Below, piece after piece: positions 56,646-62,842 of a stretch of DNA of 64,000 nt (position 1 is its first letter; every line of letters starts with the position of its first letter). The stretch covers positions 1 through 64,000 of the forward strand of contig NZ_KB894655.1 of assembly GCF_000374585.1 (NCBI RefSeq), written 5' to 3'. Origin of the DNA: Phocaeicola barnesiae DSM 18169 = JCM 13652 (GTDB taxonomy: Bacteria > Bacteroidota > Bacteroidia > Bacteroidales > Bacteroidaceae). The notes below the pieces were generated by a model, which ran no database searches, was not told the DNA's origin, and saw only the letters and a list, made by a program, of their open reading frames with translations. Position numbers and translations under genes: made by a program.

Positions 56646-56718
56646 GGTGCCATAGCTCAGTTGGTAGAGCAAAGGACTGAAAATCCTTGTGTCCCCGGTT
56701 CGATTCCTGGTGGCACCA
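56646..56718 (+). tRNA. tRNA-Phe (anticodon GAA)
   Basis: Acceptor GGTGCCA pairs with TGGCACC, D arm GCTC...GAGC, anticodon loop CTGAAAA (GAA), T arm CCCGG-TTCGATT-CCTGG, discriminator A. Terminator at 56743-56779. The likely attachment site of the integrated element that follows. Confidence 0.95.
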
Positions 56719-56742
56719 CTTTGAAGAAAAGCAATTAGTAGT

Positions 56743-56779
56743 AAACTCCTGATTTCCAAACGAAATCGGGAGTTTTTGT
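56743..56779 (+). terminator. Terminator after tRNA-Phe
   Basis: AAACTCCTGATTT (56743-56755) and AAATCGGGAGTTT (56763-56775), one wobble, T run after. May belong to the host or the element's left end. Confidence 0.85.
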
Positions 56780-56931
56780 TTTCCCGCAGGACGCAAAAAA
56801 GTGCGGAATATGACCGCTTCCGGTGTTCCAAAAGGTGGAGCGGAAAAGGCGGAGCGAAATTCTCCACCGAACAGGATTCTTTTTCGCTGATTTGCAATGT
56901 TTTGCGTATCAAGAAAACGTGGATGGTTTCC

Positions 56932-56940
56932 TACTTTTGT
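56932..56940 (+). promoter_or_regulatory. Promoter -7 box of the integrase gene
   Basis: TACTTTTGT 22 bp before the chosen start. It lies inside the longer reading frame, excluding it. Confidence 0.5.
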
Positions 56941-56961
56941 CCAACTAAAAATTGTAGGAAA

Positions 56962-58194
56962 ATGAAAAGAAACTCGTTCAATGTGCTTTTCTTCATCAAG
57001 AAAGCCAAACTGCTGAAAAACGGAGAAGCTTCCGTTTGTATGCGCATTACCGTGAATGGTGCGCGAGTGGAAACCAACATCCGCAAGAGCATTGACCCAG
57101 CATCGTGGAATCAGGCGAAGGAATGTGTCCGTGGAAAAAGCCGCAAGGCATGCGACCTGAACGCCTATATCGAAAATGCGAAAATCAAGCTCCACCAAAT
57201 CTTTAATGAATTGGAGGAACAGCGACAGCCCATCACCGCCCGACTGTTGCAGGAAAAGTTCTTCGGACAAGACAAGGAGCCGGAAGAAGTCCGCACGCTC
57301 ATCGGCACCATACAGGAACATAACGACCAATGTCGTGCTCTCGTGGGGAAAGACTATGCGCTGATTACTGTTCGCCGTTATGAAAGCTGCAAACGCTATC
57401 TCGCAGAACTTATCAAAAAGAAGCATGGGAAAGAGGATTTGCCACTAACGGAAGTCAACGGGGAGTTGGTTCGTGCCTTTGAGTTCTACCTCAAAACGGA
57501 AAAGTCCTGCCAGCAGAACACCGTTATCCGTTACATGAAGTGCCTGAAAAAGATAACCAATCTCGCTTTGGCAAACGAATGGATAAGCAAAGACCCTTTC
57601 GTGGGCATCAAGTTTCATGAGAAAGAGGTTATCCGCGAGTTTCTGACAATGGATGAACTGCTCACCATCTACCACAAGGACTTTCCGTTGGAGCGCATCC
57701 GAATCGTGCGTGATGTCTTCATCTTTGCAGCAATGACGGGGTTGGCGTTCATTGATGTGCAGCAACTGGCACCCGAACATATTGTAGAAGATGCAAACGG
57801 CAACCTGTGGATTCGCAAGCCACGGCAAAAGACGAAGAATATGTGCAACATCCCTTTGCTTGACATTCCTTTGGAAATTCTCCGCAAGTATGCCGACCAT
57901 CCGATGTGCCAAAAGAAAAAGGTATTGCTGCCTGTTCCCTGCAACCAGAAGATGAACAGCTATTTGAAAGAGATAGCTGATTTATGCCTGATAAAGAAGA
58001 ATTTAACCACTCATGTTGCGCGGCACTCGTATGCAACCTCGGTCTGCCTCGCCAACGGTGTGAGTATCGAGAATGTGGCAAAGATGCTCGGTCACTCCAA
58101 TATAAAAATGACACAACACTATGCGCGTGTGCTGGATAGTTCCATTCTGCGTGATATGACCAATGTACGAAATGTACTTTCTAATGCGATGTAA
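56962..58194 (+). CDS. int: Tyrosine recombinase / integrase
   Basis: 410 residues from ATG 56962. An arm-binding N-terminal domain (about 1-100), a SAM-like core-binding domain (115-210) and the catalytic domain (225-400). Catalytic residues visible: Lys at about 290-292, His351-x-x-Arg354 (HVARHSYAT), His378 (LGHSN) and Tyr387 (QHYARV). The first arginine of the usual set is replaced by Ala262 in TGLAFIDV, a substitution also found in Bacteroidetes relatives such as the CTnDOT integrase, which has Ser there. It integrates and, with accessory factors, excises the element. Confidence 0.95.
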   Translation: MKRNSFNVLFFIKKAKLLKNGEASVCMRITVNGARVETNIRKSIDPASWNQAKECVRGKSRKACDLNAYIENAKIKLHQIFNELEEQRQPITARLLQEKFFGQDKEPEEVRTLIGTIQEHNDQCRALVGKDYALITVRRYESCKRYLAELIKKKHGKEDLPLTEVNGELVRAFEFYLKTEKSCQQNTVIRYMKCLKKITNLALANEWISKDPFVGIKFHEKEVIREFLTMDELLTIYHKDFPLERIRIVRDVFIFAAMTGLAFIDVQQLAPEHIVEDANGNLWIRKPRQKTKNMCNIPLLDIPLEILRKYADHPMCQKKKVLLPVPCNQKMNSYLKEIADLCLIKKNLTTHVARHSYATSVCLANGVSIENVAKMLGHSNIKMTQHYARVLDSSILRDMTNVRNVLSNAM

Positions 58195-58199
58195 GGACT

Positions 58200-58574
58200 A
58201 TGGAAAGAGGAATAATCACAATCACTGAAAACGGGGCGGTCACGATGCCGACCGCTCCCGTCTGGATGACGCAGCAGGAAATGTCCGATGCGTTCAATGT
58301 GTTCGACTGCGACATCCGCAAGGCTGTACACGCCATTTACAAAAACATGGAGTTGTTTGAAAGCGAAACGAAACGGTACATCAGGCAGGACAACGGGATT
58401 AATTATGATGTTTACAGCCTTGAAATGGTGGTTGCCGTTTCCTTCAAGTTGAGAAGTAGGGAAAGTATGGCTTTCCGGCGGTTCATCATGGGAAAACTCT
58501 GTTCTTTCGATAGAGGAAATTCCATCCATTTGTTCTTTTCGCTATCCGATACCCATCCACGATGCACGTGTTAG
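58200..58574 (+). CDS. Small RhuM-like DNA-binding-type protein after the integrase
   Basis: 124 residues starting 6 bp after the integrase stop, so in the same transcript. APVWMTQQEMSDAFNVFDCDIRKAVHAIYKNMEL resembles the N-terminal helix-turn-helix of RhuM-type virulence proteins (VWLTQxQMAxLF...). The last 25 residues (CSFDRGNSIHLFF...) look unlike a conserved domain and may be a shifted or eroded tail. Such small proteins accompany Bacteroides integrases; the role is unknown. Confidence 0.55.
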   Translation: MERGIITITENGAVTMPTAPVWMTQQEMSDAFNVFDCDIRKAVHAIYKNMELFESETKRYIRQDNGINYDVYSLEMVVAVSFKLRSRESMAFRRFIMGKLCSFDRGNSIHLFFSLSDTHPRCTC

Positions 58575-58670: not shown

Positions 58671-58973
58671 TTACGTTTCCAGACGATAGGCGTTTCGATA
58701 CCCGCTCATCACCATCCGTTCGATATCCGATTCCTTATACAGAATTTTTCCACCTAATTGGTAGTAGGACACCATCCCGTTGTTGCGGTAGTCCTGCAAG
58801 GTGCGTCGGCTCACCTTGAGCCATGCCGACACTTCCTTGTCCGTCAGGAACTGTTCGTTACTTGGCGAAGCCTTATGGCTCGCGTCCATTCTTTCGATGC
58901 CTTCAAGCAGGGCATCCAGTTGTCCGATGAAGCCGACCTCCAGTTCACGGTCGGCAAGAATCAAGTCGTTCAT
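58671..58973 (-). CDS. Excisionase-like helix-turn-helix protein 1
   Basis: 100 residues. The C-terminal half (FLTDKEVSAWLKVSRRTLQDYRNNGMVSYYQLGGKILYKESDIERM) is the MerR/excisionase-type winged helix used by Bacteroides transposon accessory proteins. A coiled N-terminus (ALLEGIERMD) may dimerise. Downstream of the paralogous gene at 59015 and in the same direction. Role in excision or regulation is inferred from place and fold. Confidence 0.82.
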   Translation of the reverse strand: MNDLILADRELEVGFIGQLDALLEGIERMDASHKASPSNEQFLTDKEVSAWLKVSRRTLQDYRNNGMVSYYQLGGKILYKESDIERMVMSGYRNAYRLET

Positions 58974-59014: not shown

Positions 59015-59332
59015 TTAAATGCTACAGCCACGATAGGCTGCATCCTTACGCCTGTCCTCCACGAGCCGGACGATGCGCTGCACATCCTCCGGCTTGTAGA
59101 AAATCTTATGCCCGATTTGCGAGTAAGCCAGCGTGCCGTTGTCGCGGAACGTCTGCAAGGTGCGCGGACTGATGCGCAACTGTTGGCAAACTTCTTGGTT
59201 GTCCATCCAACGGCTGAGCCGTTTTCCTTCCCTCTTACGAAGGATTTCATTCACCCGGTCGGACAGGCGGTTGAGCTTGCCGACCATTTCATCATACTTG
59301 CTTTTTGAAATGATTACAATTTCCATACTCAT
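59015..59332 (-). CDS. Excisionase-like helix-turn-helix protein 2
   Basis: 105 residues from ATG 59332 (MSMEIVIIS). A coiled stretch (KLNRLSDRVNEILRKREGK) precedes a helix-turn-helix MDNQEVCQQLRISPRTLQTFRDNGTL and IGHKIFYKPEDVQRIVRL. Clear paralogue of the 58671 protein (R(T)LQ...RDNG and KI(F/L)YK motif in both). A promoter-like box and a phased array of TGGC boxes lie upstream. ATG 59326 is a close alternative. Confidence 0.85.
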   Translation of the reverse strand: MSMEIVIISKSKYDEMVGKLNRLSDRVNEILRKREGKRLSRWMDNQEVCQQLRISPRTLQTFRDNGTLAYSQIGHKIFYKPEDVQRIVRLVEDRRKDAAYRGCSI

Positions 59333-59362: not shown

Positions 59363-59399
59363 GCAAAGTAAAGCCGTTGCTTGTATAAAACAATGGCTT
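59363..59399 (-). promoter_or_regulatory. Promoter and operator-like inverted repeat of the excisionase-like genes
   Basis: Minus-strand -7-like TACTTTGC (59363-59370), one base shorter than consensus. Upstream lies AAGCCGTTG (59371-59379) and CAATGGCTT (59391-59399), 9-bp arms with one mismatch, placed where the -33 region should be. Confidence 0.45.
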
Positions 59400-59409
59400 T
59401 GCAATCTGT

Positions 59410-59443
59410 TGGCAGCTTGTGGCAGCAAGTGGCCGGGAGTGGC
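59410..59443. repeat. Phased TGGC array A
   Basis: TGGC at 59410, 59420, 59430 and 59440, exactly 10 bp apart, all in one orientation. Directly upstream of the excisionase-like promoter. Confidence 0.6.
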
Positions 59444-59533
59444 GTTATCCACCGAACCCGTAATGTCTGTTCCAAGCGTCCGTGATGCAAAGAAAAGTGA
59501 AGTCTGGCATAATCCGACCACTTCACATCTGTG

Positions 59534-59579
59534 TGGCAGCATTTGGCGTCGATGTGGTAGCCTGTGGCGTTCTTCTGGT
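59534..59579. repeat. Phased TGGC/TGGT array B
   Basis: TGGC/TGGT at 59534, 59544, 59555, 59565 and 59576: spacings 10, 11, 10, 11, which keep the boxes on one face of the helix. Same orientation as array A, about 90 bp away. Confidence 0.6.
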
Positions 59580-59870
59580 TCATATACCATCCGAAAATAT
59601 ATTCTTCAGGTTTTCTAAAAGCCATATCCTTAAATCCGCCCCGACCGCTCCAATTAAGCCCTTAAAATTTCCAATACCCGTTTCATGTACAATGGCAAAA
59701 CGGTGCAGCCTGAACCGTTCCGGCAATGCGTAAAGTGCAAAACCGTACATTGTTGCCACAGCCAATCCATTCGTTTGACTGCTTGCAATACAGACATTTC
59801 CTTTGCGACCGATAATCGGTCAAATGTGCGCACAACGACCTACATTGTTAAACATTTAATTCAAACAAGT
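59580..59870. other. Non-coding remainder of the 538-bp gap before the DUF3408 gene
   Basis: No gene with a recognisable product. The gap 59333-59870 holds the two phased arrays and the promoter described separately. The plus strand before 59871 lacks a clean -7 box. Confidence 0.4.
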
Positions 59871-60311
59871 ATGAAGAAAAATTTAAGCTGCCAAAGTATG
59901 GATGCAACATTACAGGATTTTTTAGGCAACAAGCCGAGTATGGAAACACTGAAGCCCGACACACAATCTGCCGGCACAAAGGAACAGCCGGAAAAGACAA
60001 GCGAGGTTGTACTGGAACAGGCTGGTGAAGCCGTGCCGGAACAAGTGGATGAAACTCCGCAGGTGGTACGCCGCATCAGCGGCAAGCAGCGACGGGCATC
60101 GTTGGAGGAATACAAGGAATCTTTTCTCACCGTTCCGTCCATCGAAGACCGCAAGCCCGTGTTCCTCAGCCGTAGCACGCGCGACGCCCTTGACCGCATC
60201 GTCCGCATGTTCGGCGAGCGCAGGATGAGTGTGTCGGGACTGGTGGAGAACATCACCCGGCAGCACCTTGCCACCTACGGGGAAGACATCGAGGCATGGC
60301 GTAAACTCTGA
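59871..60311 (+). CDS. DUF3408 family protein
   Basis: 146 residues. The acidic, low-complexity N-terminus (PEQVDETPQVVRR) is followed by a conserved C-terminus (KPVFLSRSTRDALDRIVRMFGERRMSVSGLVENITRQHLATYGEDIEAWRK), the DUF3408 region of Bacteroides mobile elements, which resembles a ribbon-helix-helix and lies near mob genes. Possibly a DNA-binding mobilization helper. Confidence 0.82.
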   Translation: MKKNLSCQSMDATLQDFLGNKPSMETLKPDTQSAGTKEQPEKTSEVVLEQAGEAVPEQVDETPQVVRRISGKQRRASLEEYKESFLTVPSIEDRKPVFLSRSTRDALDRIVRMFGERRMSVSGLVENITRQHLATYGEDIEAWRKL

Positions 60312-60323
60312 AAATTAAGAAGT

Positions 60324-60438
60324 GGATTGACGGGGCGCAATTCAGAGTTACTCTGAACCAATCCAACGGAGTTTTGAGGGGAGCAAGTTTGTGTTTCGGG
60401 CATACCGAAACCGCCTGCTCCCACTCATGAACTCCGTA
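60324..60438. repeat. Nested inverted repeats upstream of the mob genes, candidate oriT
   Basis: First set: TGGATTG (60324-60330) / CAATCCA (60360-60366) enclosing CAGAGT-T-ACTCTG (60344-60356). Second set: ACGGAGTT (60367-60374) / AACTCCGT (60431-60438), GAG (60377-60379) / CTC (60425-60427), GGGAGCA (60380-60386) / TGCTCCC (60417-60423) and GTTTCGG (60394-60400) / CCGAAAC (60406-60412) with a 5-base loop. Position before the mob genes fits an origin of transfer, but the nic site was not identified. A structured RNA is the alternative. Confidence 0.6.
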
Positions 60439-60493
60439 GAGAGCCGCATCCCGTTGGTCTATTATGTATGTACACTTTAATCATTAGAAATCA

Positions 60494-60859
60494 ATGGAAC
60501 AGAAACGGAAAATCAATAACAGGAACAAGGGAGGCCGCCCTAAGAAGGGCGCGGCTGACAAGCTGAAATACCGCCTAACGGTGAAGATGGCGACATCGGA
60601 CTACTACACGCTGAAAGGCAAGGCACGGAGCGCAGGCATATCCGCCGGGGAGTTCCTGCGCCGTTGCATGAGGGACGGGCGGGTGAAGGAGCGACTCACG
60701 CCGGAACACACTGGTTACGTCCGCCAACTTTGCGGCATGGCGAACAACCTGAACCAGCTTGCGCACAAGGCGAACGCCGCAGGCTTCGTTACGGTAAGGA
60801 TGGAATGCCGCATACTCGTGGCACGTATCGAAGAACTGTTGAATTTAATCCTCTTATGA
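60494..60859 (+). CDS. MobC-like mobilization accessory protein
   Basis: 121 residues. Lys/Arg-rich N-terminus (NRNKGGRPKKGAADKLKYRL), then a central VKMATSDYYTLKGKARSAGISAGEFLRRC and a C-terminus with LCGMANNLNQLAHKANAAG as in plasmid MobC proteins. Helps the relaxase melt oriT. 10 bp before the relaxase gene. Confidence 0.87.
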   Translation: MEQKRKINNRNKGGRPKKGAADKLKYRLTVKMATSDYYTLKGKARSAGISAGEFLRRCMRDGRVKERLTPEHTGYVRQLCGMANNLNQLAHKANAAGFVTVRMECRILVARIEELLNLILL

Positions 60860-60868
60860 CAGCCGGAT

Positions 60869-61807
60869 ATGATAGCTAAAATCGTAAAGGGAAGCAGTTT
60901 CAGGGGTGTGGTAAACTACATTCTTGACAAGAAAAAGGACGCTAAAATCCTTGTCTGTGACGGGCTGTTTGCCGAGGACAAGGACACGATAGCCATGAGC
61001 TTCGAGGCGCAATCAAAGATGAATCCAAAGCTTACGAAGCCTGTCGGACACATTTCGTTGGCTTTTCATAAGGAAGACGAACACCGCCTGACCGACCGCG
61101 CAATGGCAGGAATAGCGTTGGAATATCTGACGGAAATGGGAATAACCGACACGCAGATTCTCATTGTGCGCCACTTCGACAAGGAGCATCCGCACGTGCA
61201 TATAGCCTTCAACCGAATCGCCAATAACGGCAGGACAATCAGCGACCGCAACGAGCGGATACGCAGCGCACGCATCTGCAAGGAACTGACGAAGAAATAT
61301 AACCTGTACTTCGCCAGCGGCAAGGAACAGGTGAAACGCCATCGCCTGAAAGAGCCGGACAAGACCAAGTACGGGCTTTACTCCATCCTTAAATCGGAGG
61401 TTTCGAGGTGCGGAAACTGGCGGCAGTTAGCCGCTAATTTGGAGAAGCAAGGCGTGGATATGCAGTTCAAGTACAAGGGCAAGTCGGACGAGGTACAGGG
61501 TGTAGTTTTCACCATGAACGGCTATTCGTTCAGCGGTTCCAAGATTGACAGGCGGTTCAGCTATTCCAAGATAGATGCTGCATTGGAACGTAACAGACAT
61601 ACCGAGCGAATGGAAATGCAGCCGCCCTCGTGTCGTGAAGAACAGTCCACGTTCCCAACCGAACCAAGGGGCAACGATGATTTGTACAGCGGTTCGATTG
61701 GTCTTTTCATGCCGGACAACGCGGACGGACAGGCTGAGGAAAACCGTTTCGAGGAAGAATTAAAACGCAGGAACAAGAAAAAGAAACAACGTAAAATAGG
61801 ATTCTAA
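60869..61807 (+). CDS. mobA: Relaxase / mobilization nuclease (MOBP-type)
   Basis: 312 residues. Tyr17 in VVNYILDKK is the candidate nicking Tyr, and HFDKEHPHVHIAFNR (102-116) carries the metal-binding His cluster. SISLAF-like HISLAFHKEDEH lies between. The C-terminus is a basic tail (KRRNKKKKQRK). Starts transfer by nicking oriT. No helicase or primase domain attached. Confidence 0.9.
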   Translation: MIAKIVKGSSFRGVVNYILDKKKDAKILVCDGLFAEDKDTIAMSFEAQSKMNPKLTKPVGHISLAFHKEDEHRLTDRAMAGIALEYLTEMGITDTQILIVRHFDKEHPHVHIAFNRIANNGRTISDRNERIRSARICKELTKKYNLYFASGKEQVKRHRLKEPDKTKYGLYSILKSEVSRCGNWRQLAANLEKQGVDMQFKYKGKSDEVQGVVFTMNGYSFSGSKIDRRFSYSKIDAALERNRHTERMEMQPPSCREEQSTFPTEPRGNDDLYSGSIGLFMPDNADGQAEENRFEEELKRRNKKKKQRKIGF

Positions 61808-62629: not shown

Positions 62630-62842
62630 ATGGGAACAGAAAAAATAAATCGACTAAAAATAGTATTGGTAGAACAAGGGAAAACTGGGAAATGGTTGGC
62701 TGAACAGTTAGGAAAGAACGAGGCGACCATATCGCGCTGGTGTTCCAATACGACCCAACCCTCATTGGAAATGCTGATGAAGATAGCATCCATATTGAAT
62801 GTAGATGCGAGAAGATTGATTAATAACGGGATAGAAGAATAA
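62630..62842 (+). CDS. Xre-type helix-turn-helix regulator
   Basis: 70 residues: GKWLAEQLGKNEATISRWCSNTTQPSLEMLMKIASIL is a complete Cro/C1-type helix-turn-helix. Size fits the controller proteins of restriction-modification systems. It lies 4 bp before hsdM, so the two are co-transcribed, and a palindrome in its leader suggests self-control. Confidence 0.9.
   Translation: MGTEKINRLKIVLVEQGKTGKWLAEQLGKNEATISRWCSNTTQPSLEMLMKIASILNVDARRLINNGIEE

Follow-up and report, generated by a model that had tools for sequence, protein, structure and literature searches.

The window, i.e., the whole 64,000-nt stretch analysed here, enters an integrative mobilizable element located in tRNA-Phe. The ends of this island are a 29-bp direct repeat found at 56701 and at contig position 73859, about 17.16 kb apart (Table 1). 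xis1 and xis2 are an adjacent HTH_17 pair in a single leftward operon, and their order, of the xis2c-xis2d type, is kept in relatives; NCBIfam Xis/excise matches were weak and below cut-off. Two arrays of short boxes, A and B, are placed between the xis operon and the rightward mob operon. The original prediction had the arrays upstream of two excisionase-like genes, which is accurate for 59015 (xis1) as the first gene of the xis operon; 58671 (xis2) comes second in that same operon.

Several other segments of the island were noted. A search for a box array at the mob promoter found only single, imperfectly placed boxes there. Just 3' of the mob -7 element, GATAATCGGTCAAATGTGCGCAC shows almost no variation among all related islands, and distant islands still have its core ATAATCGGTC; this segment resembles a separate operator. 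Positions 60330-60440, in the gap that separates the DUF3408 and MobC-like genes, contain the inverted repeats ATTCAGAGTTACTCTGAA and GGGAGCAAGTTTGTGTTTCGGGCATACCGAAACCGCCTGCTCCC and have the look of an oriT, and in islands without mob genes (L002) a similar stretch is found beyond array B. A 124-aa ORF (MERGIITITENGAV...) at 58200-58574, convergent to xis2, is found in almost every related island and has a weak resemblance to part of the RhuM family. A type I restriction-modification methylase-like gene of the island (from 62847 on) adjoins a small Cro/C1-type regulator (62630-62842).

Table 1. Features of the xis-mob region, in window coordinates
Feature	Position	Strand	Description and basis
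attL direct repeat	56701..56729	+	3' end of tRNA-Phe (56646-56719); second copy beyond the window
Tyrosine integrase	56776..58194	+	Pfam Arm-DNA-bind_5, SAM-like, Phage_integrase
xis2 (100 aa, HTH_17, Xis2d-position gene)	58671..58973	-	Pfam HTH_17 4.5e-9; second operon gene
xis1 (103 aa, HTH_17, Xis2c-position gene)	59015..59326	-	Pfam HTH_17 8.4e-9; ATG at 59326; proposed binder
Promoter A -7 element TTTACTTTGC	59363..59372	-	xis operon; TTTG 46 bp from proximal A box
GCCATTG, likely promoter A -33 element	59391..59397	-	at -30 from TTTG; conserved as NCCATTG
Array A	59410..59443	-	four boxes, GCCA on xis-coding strand, 10/10/10-bp steps; sequence, register, conservation with drifting spacers
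Array A box starts relative to promoter A TTTG	-46, -56, -66, -76
Promoter B -7 element TTTTCTTTGC	59487..59496	-	second upstream promoter of xis operon
Array B	59534..59568	-	four conserved boxes, steps 10/11/10; sequence
Array B box starts relative to promoter B TTTG	-46, -56, -67, -77
Fifth B box, TGGT	59576..59579	-	not conserved among relatives
Divergent mob-operon promoter	59774..59833	+	TTTG 59774, TTTCCTTTGC 59797-59806, conserved GATAATCGGTCAAATGTGCGCAC 59811-59833
mob operon	59871..61807	+	DUF3408 59871-60311, MobC/NikA-like 60494-60859, relaxase 60869-61807; Pfam and NCBIfam

Box arrays and promoter register

Read directly from the sequence, array A has TGGC boxes at 59410, 59420, 59430 and 59440, i.e., four boxes at 10-bp steps, as predicted. 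Array B had been described as five boxes at 10/11/10/11-bp steps, and all five are present: TGGC at 59534, TGGC at 59544, TGGT at 59555, TGGC at 59565 and TGGT at 59576. The last of these is unconserved, with 31 distinct continuations in relatives. The fifth box is probably due to chance, and array B is accordingly read as having four meaningful boxes. The boxes, NCCA on the minus strand, form direct repeats of consensus GCCACANGCT with about 10.5 bp per step. In B arrays, G-CCA alternates with a variable N-CCA, and 10-bp steps alternate with 11-bp steps.

The signal of the arrays is their spacing, not the box word. The word TGTGGCAGC, searched with 1 mismatch, was found 19 times versus 12 expected, a weak enrichment that is uninformative alone. 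Arrays A and B are the sole chains of at least three TGGY boxes at 10/11-bp steps on the whole 78.9-kb contig. Under a first-order Markov model of the window, 0.017 chains of at least four boxes are expected per 64 kb, and 60 simulations under this model gave no 5-box chain.

Both arrays are accompanied by -7 elements of the Bacteroidota type, and in both the proximal box is exactly 46 bp from TTTG (A to 59367, B to 59491). Because of this identical distance, the region is, as judged from its sequence, two tandem array-plus-promoter modules directed at the xis operon. The fixed 46 bp also means that all the boxes keep one rotational setting relative to the promoter.

Information content of the CCA core, when calculated from arrays selected by their boxes, is circular and was excluded as evidence. 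An anchor-only test was used instead, in which upstream segments were aligned on the -7 element only, blind to the boxes. In non-redundant xis1 upstreams, NCCA starts cluster at -46/-45, -56/-55, -66 and -76 and are nearly absent elsewhere; two other peaks are at -35, an extra proximal box of one subgroup, and at -30, which is NCCATTG of the -33 region. For 32 upstreams with less than 50% identity, two adjacent helical phases hold 59 of the 71 CCA triplets between -80 and -40, and none of 5000 shuffles was as extreme. Among 96 distinct four-box arrays, TTTG is at 46 bp in 57, at 45 bp in 14 and at 35 bp in 13, the 35-bp arrays carrying one additional proximal box; these counts cover related elements and are not independent events.

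Arrays at excision and transfer genes

Three further places in the same genome have arrays. One has both arrays before an xis gene, one has A only, and the third, flanked by a divergent mob gene and a ParA-like traA, has B alone. In the genus search, 18 of 61 genomes had a match; several of these have both arrays, and the spacing of the boxes is kept. The 35-bp spacing pattern had 33 matches in 19 of 399 family genomes, and the reversed control had none in the same 399. Boxes with drifting spacers were found at xis1 homologues in Bacteroides, Phocaeicola, Parabacteroides, Prevotella, Odoribacter and Muribaculaceae. The expectation that box spacing would be kept while the spacers drift was thus borne out across many Bacteroidales elements.

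TTTG is 35, 45 or 46 bp away in 83 of 97 distinct arrays. Of the 83, excision genes account for 70 and transfer genes for 11 (81 together): the target is xis1 for 70 and traA for 7, 4 are inside a tra gene and 2 are unassigned. Conjugative transposons have one to three tandem modules directed at traA. The four in-gene arrays have TACCTTTG 45 bp on, and an array followed by TACCTTTG inside a tra gene is possibly an in-gene promoter. This arrangement, a four-box array in a tra gene and then an internal TACCTTTG, is seen at the conjugative transposon loci L031, L032, L175 and L076:8463-8497. At another locus (L066:8700-10300), three tandem array-plus-promoter modules, separated by repeated GCCTGCCTGCC tracts, occupy a single mob-tra intergenic region.

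In one genome (G014), an array-bearing xis1 operon adjoins an orf3/exc (topoisomerase) operon and is about 41 kb from tra arrays on the same contig, so that the xis and tra promoters of a single conjugative transposon both appear to be served by the array. A CTnDOT-type element of Parabacteroides bouchesdurhonensis, with tetQ-rteA-rteB-rteC named from translated ORFs, has GCCA, GCAA and GCCA at -66, -56 and -46 of its traA promoter, in the mob-tra intergenic region. At the CTnDOT-type xis2c promoters that were examined, the boxes are only degenerate. Activation of transfer genes by the excisionases of CTnDOT is reported in PMC9956884, and the title of a study cited there reports binding of Xis2d to the mob-tra intergenic region.

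In sum, comparison of sequences established the spacing of the boxes, the promoter register and the recurrence at xis and tra promoters, as well as the absence both of a coding constraint and of arrays from the att ends of the island.

The proposed operator and its alternatives

The AF2 model of Xis1 (mean pLDDT 78.9) shows a winged HTH together with a long helix at the N-terminus and another helix at the C-terminus. The HTH matched BldC chains with an rmsd of 1.6 Å over 50 residues and Pukovnik Xis with an rmsd of 1.0 Å over 47, in each case with a Foldseek probability of 1.00 and a weak E-value (>0.01 for BldC). Many MerR proteins tie in Z as structural matches, and PDB sequence searches found no close solved relative. 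RdfS was not among the structural matches listed, which carries no weight as evidence. The matches of the DNA-binding domain to BldC and Pukovnik Xis agree with the original description of the neighbouring genes as encoding small winged-helix, excisionase-like proteins.

In distant Xis1 clades the register is kept and the box is changed, e.g., to GACATCTGAT repeats. Loci L182, L176, L217 and L220, from other Xis1 clades, keep the promoter register with 10-bp repeats of GACATCTGAT or ATATTTGATG that are in phase. In the box-changed clades the recognition helix of Xis1 differs, while that of Xis2 stays SRRTLQ[DE]YRN-like. This covariation involves few clades, and many recognition residues are common to clades with different boxes. 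Because the Xis1 helix changes with the box while the Xis2 helix hardly does, Xis1 is favoured, and it is probably the binder rather than Xis2 or another regulator. In the CTnDOT Xis2d paper, the Xis2d site is reportedly a dyad, and tra is said to be activated by Xis2c plus Xis2d. If the Xis2d site is a dyad, direct repeats would be a better fit for Xis1 (Xis2c) or a mixed complex than for Xis2d by itself.

The explanation that we prefer, with a probability of roughly two in three, is that the arrays are an operator for a head-to-tail oligomer of Xis1 that controls xis and tra promoters. Xis1, encoded just downstream (59015), would bind head to tail with one protomer per box, as other excisionases and BldC do. 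The bound protein would switch on, i.e., auto-activate, the excision operon and, in conjugative elements, would switch on the tra operon as well, and excision and transfer would thereby be timed together. One part of this explanation, that the arrays are promoter-linked operators, we hold with strong confidence. For another part, the sign of regulation, activation is the better guess. RdfS, a functional analogue, represses its own promoter and activates another (PMC11963761), so the regulation at the xis promoter could be repression or autoregulation.

The same promoter-linked operators might be bound by Xis2 (58671, Xis2d-like), or by an alternating Xis1/Xis2 hetero-oligomer for which 10/11/10 would represent 21-bp two-protomer units. 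Binding by Xis2 would accord with the cited title on CTnDOT Xis2d, and alternation with the alternating boxes and steps of the B arrays. These arrangements are nevertheless unlikely, given that the recognition helix of Xis2 is nearly constant where the box differs and that array A of the window has 10/10/10 steps. Less likely again is that the arrays are operators of a different regulator, coded by an element or by the host (e.g., a helper-CTn activator), that drives the xis and tra promoters. Such a regulator would have precedent in known IMEs, where the main regulators of helpers turn on the IME excisionase gene (PMC5704250), and islands and CTn tra promoters of the same genome do both carry arrays. 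Arrays are found, however, in islands that lack another conserved regulator gene beside xis, and the box sequence varies with the Xis1 clade.

The original prediction also proposed, as one option, an arm-type recombination array. Arm-type or excisionase recombination sites would be part of the excision complex, and excisionases bind such repeats at att sites (PMC7498355). The arrays are 2.7 kb from attL and more than 14 kb from attR, however, and they have a fixed promoter distance and are present at tra promoters. A scan of the mapped island ends, to which weaker or unboxed sites are not visible, found no boxed chain at either end. As the ends lack arrays and the arrays are promoter-locked, arm-type sites were rejected for the window island, and recombination sites of either type are a very improbable explanation; the protein that binds the arrays might bind att DNA in a different manner. 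A conserved overlapping coding frame had been named beforehand as something that might explain the boxes. Long ORFs do overlap the arrays in the window, and four tra copies are inside a gene. Of the reading frames in the 24 non-redundant B modules, the best is open in 14 and none in every module, and the coding-frame explanation was rejected. Given also the low chance expectation reported above, we attach almost no weight to a coding frame or chance as the source of the spacing.

If the arrays are operators for Xis1, they may bear on cross-talk between elements. The mobilizable island of the window and a conjugative transposon tra promoter in the same genome have the same box and register. Helper regulators turn on the excisionase genes of mobilizable elements, NBU1 included (PMC5704250), and a shared excisionase operator might be another way for a helper to turn on island excision. 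As a tentative idea, the Xis of a resident conjugative transposon could read the same array when it belongs to an unrelated mobilizable island of that cell; helper transfer would then be switched on along with island excision, and clades with different boxes would represent separate, insulated regulons. Mobile elements of Bacteroidales carry much of the gut antibiotic resistance traffic, and the way in which their excision and transfer genes are coordinated in time is only partly known. The fixed-register signature makes the regulon readable from genomes and predicts which promoters are under an excisionase, and it suggests how conjugative neighbours might wake mobilizable islands.

Relation to known systems

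The original prediction knew of no such array, and for this Bacteroidales family none was found in the literature searched. Repeats one turn apart are, however, already known from 186 Apl, lambda Xis and BldC. Excisionases usually have operators made of tandem repeats spaced by one helical turn (PMC7498355), and BldC binds promoters head to tail at direct repeats about one turn apart (PMC5859096). What appears undescribed in the literature searched is the fixed promoter register, the tandem modules, and the use of one kind of array at both the excision and the transfer promoters of many Bacteroidales elements.

Apl of phage 186 is likewise a small excisionase and transcription regulator that binds cooperatively, and its operators are direct repeats spaced 10-11 bp apart, five at att and seven between promoters (pR-pL) (PMC7498355). 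Apl, however, represses face-to-face promoters and also binds att arrays, whereas each window array is 46 bp upstream of its own promoter, and such arrays are absent at the island ends and recur at tra promoters. BldC of Streptomyces is a MerR-like winged HTH protein without a coiled coil, and at promoters 2 to 4 of its protomers bind head to tail to direct repeats spaced by about one turn (PMC5859096); the HTH of the Xis1 model matches its fold closely, with a weak E-value. Unlike the proposed Xis1 operators, BldC sites are 9-bp repeats, and BldC is a host developmental regulator with no mobile element; the Xis1 model also has a long extra N-terminal helix.

CTnDOT, with its Xis2c/Xis2d/Exc control of the tra and mob operons, has a homologous gene pair, and its excisionases are reported to act on the mob-tra intergenic region (cited in PMC9956884). 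The tra promoter of the tetQ-rteABC element has the same box register. CTnDOT differs in that its excision and transfer genes are under RteC (PMC1976400) and in that xis2c promoter boxes are degenerate only; a helix-phased array was not found described for it in the literature searched. RdfS of ICEMlSymR7A is an oligomeric wHTH excisionase with an extra N-terminal helix that binds its own promoter and controls transfer (PMC11963761). RdfS has no consensus motif and attenuates its own promoter, whereas the window arrays have a clear boxed motif. With AcaCD/SetCD, a regulator of the helper element turns on the IME excisionase gene (PMC5704250), as the shared arrays might allow; those activators are different, and the shared operator of the window type is an excisionase-type array.
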